This document shows positions 59,385 to 61,989 of a stretch of DNA of 64,000 bases, in pieces; the first letter of the stretch is position 1; each line of letters starts with the position of its first letter. Source of the DNA: Pontibacterium sinense (lineage in GTDB: Bacteria > Pseudomonadota > Gammaproteobacteria > Pseudomonadales > Balneatricaceae). The position numbers and the translations under genes were made by a program. The stretch lies in NCBI RefSeq assembly GCF_015209595.1, contig NZ_JADEYS010000003.1, positions 62,001 through 126,000 on the forward strand, written 5' to 3'. The notes beneath the pieces were generated by a model. The model was not told the origin of the DNA. It saw only the letters and a list, made by a program, of their open reading frames with translations, and did not search any database.

Positions 59385-60317
59385 CTAGCGACTTGCATCG
59401 GAGGCTGGCTGTTCTCGGTCTTCAAACAAGATTCGACGAGCGCTGTTGGTGACGGCCAATACCCCGGGGTGACGAATACGTCGCTCCAGCGAGATCGCAT
59501 AGAAGCGTTCGCGGATCGAATCGATACGACCAATGCTTTCTACCGAGAACTGACGTTCGATATGTGGCTCCAGTACGCTGGGGCCACAGAACACTCCTTT
59601 CCCTGCCTGACCAAACGTCCCCAGCAATGCGTGATCCACACACTCGACAACGATGTTGGGGTGAATATCATGGCGATCACACCACTTTTGCAGGCTGGAA
59701 CCAATCATCGTGTCGCCAGTTGGCATCAGCAGCGGCGCATTCTGCAGTGATTGGGGGAAATTCTCCCGATAGTTTGCAGCCAGTGCCGGAGCTGCAAACA
59801 TCGACATGCTGCAATCTCCCAATAAGTGGTTGTAGGCTCTGATATTGAAGCCTGCATCTACGGGGCGATCCGTCAGTACCATATCCACACGGTGAGTGGC
59901 GAGATCTGCCAGCAAAGTCTCCATGTTACCTTCACGGCACTCAAGCCGGACCGGTTCATCCAATTCCAGGGCTGGTTCTAGCAGTCGATATGCAACCAGT
60001 TTGGGCAAAACATCTGCAATACCAACACTGAAAAGACGTACGGACTGTCCCGGATTGCGTAGCTGGTCCTGCAGTGACTCGCCCATCGAGAAAATCTGCT
60101 CTGCATAATCCAGCGCTTGCTTGCCCGCATCGGTCAGAATCAGTTTGCGGCCTTCCTTTTGTAGCAAGGCAACCCCAAGAGTGTGCTCCAACTGTTTGAG
60201 CTGACCTGAAATAGTTTGTGGTGTCAGATTGAGCTTCTCGCAGGCACGGACGATGGAGCCTTCCTGTGCAACTACCATAAAATAACGCAAGTGTTTGAAA
60301 TTCAGATGATGAATCAT
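59385..60317 (-). CDS. nhaR: NhaR-like LysR-family activator
   Basis: About 310 aa. The N-terminal winged HTH is FKHLRYFMVVAQEGSIVRAC, LNLTPQTISGQLKQLEHTLG, and the C-terminal effector-binding domain follows. NhaR activates nhaA in response to sodium in other gammaproteobacteria. The gene is divergent from nhaA. The ATG at 60317 is used because the LysR fold begins there; the open frame to 60392 would add 25 unlikely residues. Its stop abuts the gph stop. Confidence 0.85.
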   Translation of the reverse strand: MIHHLNFKHLRYFMVVAQEGSIVRACEKLNLTPQTISGQLKQLEHTLGVALLQKEGRKLILTDAGKQALDYAEQIFSMGESLQDQLRNPGQSVRLFSVGIADVLPKLVAYRLLEPALELDEPVRLECREGNMETLLADLATHRVDMVLTDRPVDAGFNIRAYNHLLGDCSMSMFAAPALAANYRENFPQSLQNAPLLMPTGDTMIGSSLQKWCDRHDIHPNIVVECVDHALLGTFGQAGKGVFCGPSVLEPHIERQFSVESIGRIDSIRERFYAISLERRIRHPGVLAVTNSARRILFEDREQPASDASR

Positions 60318-60347
60318 AGTTCGAAAAAACCGAAATGTTTTTAGATT

Positions 60348-60359
60348 AAATTCGAATTT
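60348..60359. promoter_or_regulatory. Palindrome in the nhaR-nhaA gap
   Basis: AAATTCGAATTT, a perfect 12-bp palindrome about 20 bases upstream of the nhaA -10 element and just before the nhaR start. It fits the position of a LysR-type regulator site, perhaps for NhaR. Confidence 0.4.
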
Positions 60360-60378
60360 TCTTGTCTTATGGGGTGAG

Positions 60379-60384
60379 TATACT
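60379..60384 (+). promoter_or_regulatory. Candidate nhaA promoter -10
   Basis: TATACT, 5/6 match, with no good -35 at 16-18 bases, as expected for an activator-dependent promoter. Transcription would begin near 60391, at the foot of the structured leader. Confidence 0.45.
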
Positions 60385-60390
60385 GAATTC

Positions 60391-60507
60391 ATTAGATGAG
60401 TTCTCCCCCCGATAGTCTGGCTGCTGGGACTAAAAATTACAGCAGGGCTCTTATCACAATGCTAATTACACACCCCGGCCTGTCCGGGGTTTTTTTTTGA
60501 GGTGTTT
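60391..60507 (+). ncRNA. Structured nhaA leader, riboswitch candidate
   Basis: About 117 nt. An outer helix pairs GAGTT (60398-60402) with GGCTC (60446-60450). A perfect inner helix pairs CTGCTG (60421-60426) with CAGCAG (60440-60445) around GGACTAAAAATTA. A C6 run (60405-60410) lies between the 5' arms. A 21-nt AT-rich stretch links this to a perfect intrinsic terminator directly before the nhaA ribosome site. This is the layout of a transcriptional riboswitch. The nhaA-I motif, reported as a Li+/Na+-responsive class, is known upstream of nhaA. I cannot match its consensus from memory. Confidence 0.6.
60472..60498 (+). terminator. Intrinsic terminator just before nhaA
   Basis: ACCCCGG, loop CCTGT, CCGGGGT, followed by nine T. 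GAGG (60499-60502) and the nhaA ATG (60508) follow at once, so the terminator must be regulated for nhaA to be expressed from the upstream promoter. Confidence 0.85.
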
Positions 60508-61671
60508 ATGCAAATCGTGCAGCGATTCATTCAGCTTGAGTCCGCGAGTGGCATTTTATTGATTGGGGCTATGTTATTAGCCATGTTGATGGCGAATACC
60601 CCACTTGACCCTTATTACGAAGCGATTCTAGATCTTCCGGTCGAAGTGCGTGTGGGGGCGCTTCACTTGGATAAACCGTTGTTGTTGTGGATAAATGACG
60701 GCTTGATGGCAATCTTTTTCCTGCTGGTTGGACTTGAAGTTAAGCGAGAACTGATGGTCGGCGAGCTTTCTGAGCCGAGTCGTATCGTGTTGCCAGCTAT
60801 CGCTGCAGTGGGTGGTATGGCGATTCCCGCACTCTGTTTTGCTGTTTTTAACTGGAGTGATGATACCGCCCTGCGTGGCTGGGCGATTCCGACCGCAACG
60901 GATATCGCTTTTGCTCTTGGTATCTTGTCGTTGCTAGGTAACAGGGTGCCTGTGGCGCTGAAACTGTTCCTGATGACGCTGGCGATTATCGATGACTTAG
61001 GGGCCATTATTGTTATCGCCCTGTTCTATACCACTGAGCTATCGACCTTATCATTGACGGTTGCAGCGACAACCATTGCGATGTTGTTCCTGATGAATCG
61101 TCTGGGCGTGATGCGTATTGCTGCGTATGTGCTGGTGGGCGTCGTACTCTGGATCAGTGTGTTGAAATCCGGTGTGCATGCGACACTGGCGGGCGTGGTG
61201 CTGGCGTTTGCGATTCCGCTTACCAATAAGAAAAATCCAGATTTTTCGCCACTGAAGAGCCTGGAACATCTACTTCATCCGTGGGTGGCCTTTGCAATTT
61301 TGCCGTTCTTTGCCTTCGCCAATGCGGGTGTGCCACTGGCGGGAATATCGCTGGATATGCTCTTTGCGTCGGTTCCGGTGGGGATCATGGCAGGTTTGTT
61401 TATCGGTAAGCAGGTTGGAGTGTTTGGCTTCAGCTGGATTGCGATCAAACTAGGTATTGCTGAAAAACCCGGAGGGGCTGGTTGGGGGGCTCTCTATGGT
61501 GTATCGCTGCTGACCGGCATCGGTTTTACCATGAGTTTGTTTGTCGATTCACTGGCCTACGAAGGCATGGCCGATCTTTATGGGGGGGCAGACCGCCTGG
61601 CTATCCTAATAGGATCGGTAGTATCGGCTCTAGCGGGGTATCTGGTGCTGAAATTTGCACTGAAAGACTGA
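60508..61671 (+). CDS. nhaA: NhaA, Na+/H+ (Li+/H+) antiporter
   Basis: About 387 aa with about 12 membrane segments. The conserved [19 protein letters not shown], the [16 protein letters not shown] aspartate pair (transport site) and [18 protein letters not shown] are present. It exports Na+ or Li+ against H+ and controls pH. The ATG at 60508 has GAGG 5 bases upstream; a GTG at 60502 is less likely. It is controlled by the divergent NhaR and probably by its terminator-bearing leader. Confidence 0.95.
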
Positions 61672-61989
61672 GTATTCGGCTGTGACGGTTGATTCGCTTA
61701 CGGTGCTGCTATATGGTCTCGTTATCGATTCCATTTGCTGAACATAAGCGATCAACCGTGAATTCATACGAGTCTCTGCAGAACTTTGGTGCTTTGCCCC
61801 GCTTGCCGTACGTCGGTGAACGATGGCGATGGTGTGCCTGAAACGAGTTTTGTTCTACTCGTTGCAGTGATTTCTGAATTCAGCATCCTCAGACTTACGA
61901 TTTTTTGTTTGCCCATCTGACACGTGCTTTCTTCGCTTCCTGCGACGATCTCAAATCTGTACACCGAATTTACGCCTGAGATATAAAGC
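61672..61989 (+). other. nhaA-trpE gap, possible trp leader
   Basis: 318 bases. TTGATT near 61689 and TATATG about 15 bases later could be promoter elements. It holds a GTG-started ORF of 27 codons ending with RWRWCA (61758-61841), a perfect AACGAGT/ACTCGTT hairpin (61842-61863) at its stop, a CTGAATTCAG palindrome and a T6 run near 61900. These resemble pieces of a trp attenuator but the terminator hairpin is weak. Confidence 0.45.
61758..61841 (+). CDS. Candidate trp leader peptide
   Basis: GTG-started ORF of 27 codons with two Trp codons (TGG at 61824 and 61830) separated by one Arg codon, near the 3' end. Stop TGA at 61839. A 7-bp hairpin follows immediately. This is the form of a ribosome-stalling leader that would sense tryptophan. 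No convincing ribosome-binding site is present, so it may be chance. Confidence 0.3.
   Translation: MNSYESLQNFGALPRLPYVGERWRWCA

Follow-up and report, generated by a model that had tools for sequence, protein, structure and literature searches.

The locus lies in the window, the whole 64,000-nt stretch of DNA that was analysed, which is part of the genome labelled G000 in our comparisons. The gene order is rpe, gph, nhaR (reverse), the RNA described here, nhaA and trpE, where rpe, gph and trpE are presumptive names. Alignment with relatives puts the start of nhaA at ATG 60508. Ahead of trpE, at 61812-61840, a frame ending in GERWRWCA and a stop (with the codons TGG CGA TGG) resembles a trp-attenuator leader peptide, and similar Trp-rich frames also stand ahead of trpE in the relatives inspected. 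The features of the region are as follows.

59385..60317, (-) strand: nhaR, a Na+-responsive activator of the LysR type, transcribed away from the RNA (NCBIfam NF008284 NhaR, 238.4 bits, cut-off 219)
60321..60333, (+) strand: upstream box TCGAAAAAACCGA, putative NhaR site, with 2/13 mismatches to the E. coli NhaR consensus TCgaAAAAatCtA given in the available part of PMC6307784
60345..60360, (+) strand: palindromic box ATTAAATTCGAATTTT, putative NhaR site, with at most 3 mismatches in 36/37 loci
60379..60384, (+) strand: -10 box TATACT, without a good -35; TATACT in 28/29 divergent regions, TATAAT in G023
60391..60498, (+) strand: predicted small RNA, transcript of about 108 nt with its 5' end predicted from the -10 box; 37 homologous loci, terminator in 37/37
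60400..60410, (+) strand: C-rich 5' segment GUUCUCCCCCC, proposed pairing segment; C-rich motif ahead of the terminator in 33/37 RNAs
60421..60445, (+) strand: hairpin CUGCUG / CAGCAG; 85.3% of pair cells kept in g1/g8, a similar helix (80%) in g16
60446..60462, (+) strand: conserved stretch GGCUCUUAUCACAAUGC (DNA GGCTCTTATCACAATGC); UAUCAC, or CUCAUCCA in g15, in 35/37 RNAs
60472..60498, (+) strand: intrinsic terminator, taken as the RNA 3' end, from terminator detection
60508..61671, (+) strand: nhaA, Na+/H+ antiporter (TIGR00773, 496 bits, cut-off 254)

The initial annotation had described nested helices, a 7-bp terminator, nine T and a run of six C, and had read them as a riboswitch candidate ahead of nhaA. 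All of these elements were present where it had placed them. The outer helix joins GAGTT 60398-60402 with GGCTC 60446-60450, and inside it CTGCTG 60421-60426 pairs with CAGCAG 60440-60445. The C6 run occupies 60405-60410. The terminator stem, ACCCCGG 60472-60478 with CCGGGGT 60484-60490, has 7 pairs and a 5-nt loop and is followed by nine T (60490-60498) and an RBS-like GAGG (60499-60502). It was the single terminator in 60250-60560, where shuffles gave a mean of 0.5 (sd 0.6). Leader folds of 110 nt (z -0.58; 62/200 shuffles folded equally well or better) and 70 nt (z +0.12; 103/200 shuffles) showed no stability beyond chance, and the accessibility of the C-run in G000 was no higher than average (0.54 vs 0.54).

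Both reported helices had been expected to covary across orthologous leaders. When eight g1/g8 sequences (7 distinct) were aligned, the helices kept 80.6% and 85.3% of pair cells, but their covariation score was reached by 38/500 shuffles, and the terminator and GGCTCTTATCACAATGC (60446-60462) were conserved far above them. A consensus structure for g1/g8, the group of the window, was obtained for the terminator only. The two helices are thus real as sequence, while their conservation as helices is weakly supported.

Two further candidates in this stretch were discarded. An H-type pseudoknot, AGUC 60414-60417 with GACU 60428-60431 around CUGCUG, looked attractive from five sequences; its 5' strand is taken by a better supported hairpin in g16, and covariation of its stem in g1/g8 was not above shuffles (396/500 reached the score). 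A 34-codon frame from ATG 60396-60398 to TGA 60498-60500, running through the RNA and its terminator, was rejected as a small ORF because it is frameshifted in G003, meets an early stop in G002 and lacks such an ATG in G037.

Occurrence of the RNA with and without nhaA

Of 77 genomes searched for NhaA, 40 had a match, and 30 loci were retrieved. Where the upstream DNA of these loci was read, five (L001-L005) showed a recognisable leader, and the covariance model R1 was built from them. Run on 116 family genomes, R1 gave matches at E<=1 in 24, and the matches were accepted as homologues in 11. Those in the other 13 genomes were dropped, six of them (G082, G091, G018, G043, G015, G111) on weak score alone, unread; G018, G025, G099, G111 and G043 re-entered the set via other loci. 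In the order (390 genomes), R1 matched four at E<=0.1, of which G000 and G019 were true and G298 and G371 apparently unrelated. A pattern scan of contigs yielded 11 stretches, 4 of which were taken as true.

The RNA does not depend on nhaA for its presence. In G001 and G011 it follows nhaR with no nhaA behind, the gene next to it in G001 being convergent, and in G109 and G112 both nhaR and nhaA are missing and the RNA is flanked by gph and trpE. Reading of 26 gph loci added further nhaA-less members (G111, G031 and G043). NhaR orthologues at E<=1e-100 were found in 29 of the 116 family genomes, and all 29 have on their divergent side an operator of similar sequence, a -10 box at constant distance and a short RNA with an intrinsic terminator, the terminator being called in 28/29 by the first detector and in 29/29 by a laxer one. 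At seven of these loci nhaA lies behind the RNA (G000, G002, G003, G037, G077, G079 and G085). It is absent from the other 22, where the downstream search covered at least 1,488 nt in 21 and 604 nt in G087. The RNA is also present at eight g16 loci that have no nhaR beside it, and nhaA follows in three of these (G019, G110 and G116). In total there were 37 loci, 10 with adjacent nhaA and 27 without, and a terminator was present in every one. Of the 27 nhaA-less RNAs, 26 keep UAUCAC/CUCAUCCA or a one-base variant.

For contrast outside the family we took 29 NhaR homologues, the best-scoring loci of the 61 matching genomes among 293, with about 44-53% identity. The same detector found a terminator in the first 420 nt of none of the 29. 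The palindromic box occurred with at most 4 mismatches within 150 nt in 15/29, a raw count made without shuffles, and in two cases (L131, L151) nhaA directly adjoined. Within the sampled genomes, the RNA thus seems confined to this family.

Two other arrangements were seen next to NhaR-like genes. In L124, L132, L134, L142, L144, L149 and L150, which belong to other families, the NhaR-like gene faces away from a gene whose product resembles a ribosome hibernation factor. In L125-L128, from one genus with genomes of about 6 Mb, its divergent neighbour is a small lipoprotein-like gene, and boxes of the same type are present.

Promoter region and architecture of the RNA

The best match of the upstream box to the E. 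coli NhaR consensus, as given in the available part of PMC6307784, had 1-5 mismatches across the 37 loci, with 7 in G087, whose upstream sequence is shorter. The palindromic box, the consensus of which was taken from the window after the sequences had been seen, was matched with at most 3 mismatches in all loci except G114 (5 mismatches), the shuffles averaging about 6. Its distance from the -10 box was constant across the 29 divergent regions. A scan upstream of the RNA found no sigma-70 site, as would be expected for an activated promoter. NhaR likely activates the promoter of the RNA, and would do so through the two TCGA-type boxes. This proposal covers the loci with adjacent nhaR.

Four parts recur in the RNA: a 5' C-rich segment, a middle that varies by genus, UAUCAC (or CUCAUCCA in g15) and the terminator. 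The C-rich motif and the UAUCAC pattern, both picked after seeing the sequences, occurred in 33/37 RNAs (shuffles: mean 13.2, maximum 21) and 35/37 RNAs (shuffles: mean 1.1, maximum 5), respectively. The C-rich motif was missing in 3/8 g16 RNAs and in G114; in the three g16 RNAs the C-run was lost and the stem retained.

The setting of the C-rich segment was examined by genus. The 8 g5 sequences place it in a hairpin loop closed by 7 bp that never vary and so carry no covariation signal. The g16 hairpin that holds it in its loop does covary: 98.2% of the cells are paired, and at one pair four sequences have C-G and four have U-A. The g15 RNAs have a covarying 5' hairpin in which one pair appears as CG, UA, GC and AU, two sequences being unpaired there. 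For the 5' hairpin and terminator together, 9 cells were changed on both sides in g16 (3.4 in shuffles) and 12 in g15 (4.3 in shuffles), and 0/500 shuffles reached either value. By number of pairs changed on both sides, the result was only moderately unusual (58/500 shuffles in g16, 19/500 in g15), and the sequences are related and not independent. Since 5/8 of the g16 loci and 9/12 of the g15 loci are without nhaA, this covariation indicates that selection on the structure continues without nhaA. The g15 RNAs (L173-L185) are also longer, with extra pyrimidine-rich loops; UGGA-CUCUCA-UCCA is invariant in 12/12 and GACU-CUCCUCC-AGUC is found in some.

Complementarity to ribosome-binding sites

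The complement of the C-rich segment UUCUCCCC is a strong ribosome-binding site, which suggests antisense repression at GGGGAGA-type sites. When perfect 11-nt complements were sought, the UAUCAC stretch had none in G000 outside the RNA itself. For CUCUUAUCACA, the RNA itself matched in G000, G002 and G003; there was one extra match in G003 and two in G037, and none in G001. The pattern GGGGAGA-N3-9-ATG gave 36, 24 and 40 matches in G000, G002 and G003, respectively, vs 24, 26 and 22 for the reversed pattern, and was thus commoner in two of the three genomes.

From the 100 GGGGAGA matches, 11 stretches representing 5 recurring sites were taken. Four lie ahead of genes that we take to be petA-like (Rieske), ETF-ubiquinone-oxidoreductase-like, PaaC-like and cobalamin-type methyltransferase-like, and one lies inside a long opposite-strand frame. 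The petA-like gene has GGGGAGAAC ahead of its start in G000, G002 and G003, with nine bases complementary to GUUCUCCCC at 60400-60408. GGGGAGA stood ahead of petA in 26/26 RNA-bearing genomes examined vs 2/7 in which no RNA was found (L228-L257, L217-L219), and it was kept also where the RNA had lost its C-run. The longest complement between the RNA body and the petA start region of the same genome averaged 7.35 nt vs 6.93 nt for swapped partners, a value reached by 9/2000 swaps with relatedness ignored. It measured 9 nt in G000, G002 and G003 and 10 nt in G019, and in many genomes the longest match lay away from the C-run. A strong, inherited Shine-Dalgarno sequence accounts for part of the complementarity to petA. 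The petA-like gene is the best target candidate, as a lead only.

Under the mechanism that we propose, the C-rich 5' segment would pair in trans with such ribosome-binding sites, and pairing would lower translation of the targets when NhaR senses sodium or high pH. The sequences themselves show the conservation of the RNA, its architecture and its independence from nhaA, and from them we infer its transcription, its activation by NhaR, the base pairing, the targets and any need for Hfq.

Competing readings and related systems

We interpret 60391-60498 as a stand-alone small-RNA gene divergent from nhaR, probably activated by NhaR, acting in trans and ending at its own terminator, and we give this interpretation a probability of roughly 0.7. 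A stand-alone small RNA should have its own promoter and its own intrinsic terminator and be conserved apart from a downstream gene, and this is what the sequences contain; a cis-riboswitch should occur together with the gene it controls, and nhaA is adjacent in 10/37 loci. Most related loci have kept the RNA but have no nhaA behind it, and the element therefore reads as a small-RNA gene rather than a Li+/Na+ riboswitch, and action in trans is most likely. The terminator would be the 3' end of the RNA itself and not a gate built for nhaA, which, in the 10 loci that have it behind the RNA, would be expressed from read-through transcripts.

The switch proposed in the initial annotation was of the nhaA-I or nhaA-II type. 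These motifs, now the Li+-I and Li+-II riboswitches, are RNAs ahead of nhaA according to the available part of PMC9646797, and the window RNA resembles them in that position; it differs in having no covariance-model match and in being kept without nhaA. Neither nhaA-I (RF03057) nor nhaA-II (RF03038) matched at gathering score in the 64-kb window, at E<=10 on 60300-60540 or in its own genome. The nhaA-I model rang in a control genome; the nhaA-II model rang in none, so that its silence in the own genome carries little weight. No Rfam family matched 10 homologous loci at gathering score. The weak matches, 15 on the leader at E<=10 and 4 on the G077 homologue at E<=1, were all far below gathering scores, fell mostly on the terminator or were unrelated, and were taken as chance. 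With the gene association as its sole point in favour, a Li+-I or Li+-II riboswitch is exceedingly improbable here. A cation or metabolite riboswitch of a new class serving nhaA, with the nhaA-less loci as remnants, would account for the conserved terminator and for the 10 loci with nhaA. It fits poorly with the 27 others, which keep the promoter-like region as well as the terminator and nearly always the UAUCAC-type stretch, and with covarying structure in sets of loci that mostly lack nhaA. Different genera also have different hairpins in the middle of the RNA, unlike what is expected of a ligand-binding core. We regard such a switch as very unlikely. A cis switch dedicated to nhaA is not supported, and we would return to a riboswitch only if termination proved to respond to cations.

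The argument that a terminator at this place demands controlled read-through into nhaA survives in part. At the seven nhaR loci where nhaA follows, the conserved terminator ends 9-20 nt ahead of the nhaA match, so nhaA needs either read-through or a promoter within the RNA. The RNA could accordingly have a dual function, as a trans-acting small RNA and, where nhaA follows, as a leader whose read-through is regulated through folding of the C-run onto the GGGG of the terminator, through how strongly NhaR drives the promoter, or through the binding of some factor. Of the four closest leaders that carry nhaA, two allow the first of these, the antiterminator of the initial annotation, on thermodynamic grounds: an unconstrained terminator-breaking fold is about 1 kcal/mol better (-28.1 vs -26.9 in G000; -27.8 vs -27.0 in G003). 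It is not favoured in the other two, G002 and G037, whose best fold keeps the terminator. When the terminator was forced and compared with a blocked 5' arm, the terminator form was favoured in 37/37 RNAs. The nhaA-bearing RNAs were nearer to balance between the folds (mean 7.6 vs 10.1 kcal/mol for the others; Mann-Whitney p 0.011, uncorrected and with relatives not independent), which leaves room for a cis role, whereas terminator hairpins were equally strong with and without nhaA (p 0.33). On this evidence we consider dual function unlikely, though it ranks second among the readings. The fuller version, in which an NhaR-driven small RNA masks ribosome-binding sites (perhaps of respiratory genes, e.g. 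petA) and doubles as the nhaA leader where nhaA is present, is a rather improbable one. If this fuller version were true, one promoter would set both sodium export and the repressed genes via the fraction of transcripts that terminate.

Returning to the stand-alone small RNA, it would represent a small-RNA family without a match in Rfam that adjoins the sodium regulator NhaR and is probably under its control. Among the matches listed in the open-licence literature for NhaR or the family genera with small RNAs, leaders, attenuation or riboswitches, none was a published description of it. If true, an NhaR-controlled small RNA would add a post-transcriptional arm to the sodium and alkaline stress response of marine bacteria. 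The case also carries a warning: an RNA ahead of a plausible gene passes for a leader until loci without that gene are inspected.

In E. coli, NhaR acts on the Na+-induced promoter of a single nhaA-nhaR operon (PMC6307784, available part); the NhaR binding consensus is similar, whereas in the window the two genes are divergent with the RNA gene between them. RsaE of Staphylococcus aureus, proposed in the available text of PMC9266662 to act via a UCCC motif at target mRNAs, shares the type of action suggested here and is unrelated in sequence, host and regulator. The closest in action are NfeR1 and alpha-r14 (cuckoo) RNAs of Sinorhizobium, described in the accessible part of PMC10746234 as LysR-type-activated trans RNAs whose C-rich anti-Shine-Dalgarno loops pair with ribosome-binding sites. 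The alpha-r14 RNAs belong to alphaproteobacteria and carry unpaired CCUCCUCCC in three hairpins, whereas the window RNA has one C-run, adjoins nhaR and has no Rfam match; the likeness lies in the LysR-type activator and the anti-Shine-Dalgarno pairing, both proposed here from sequence.
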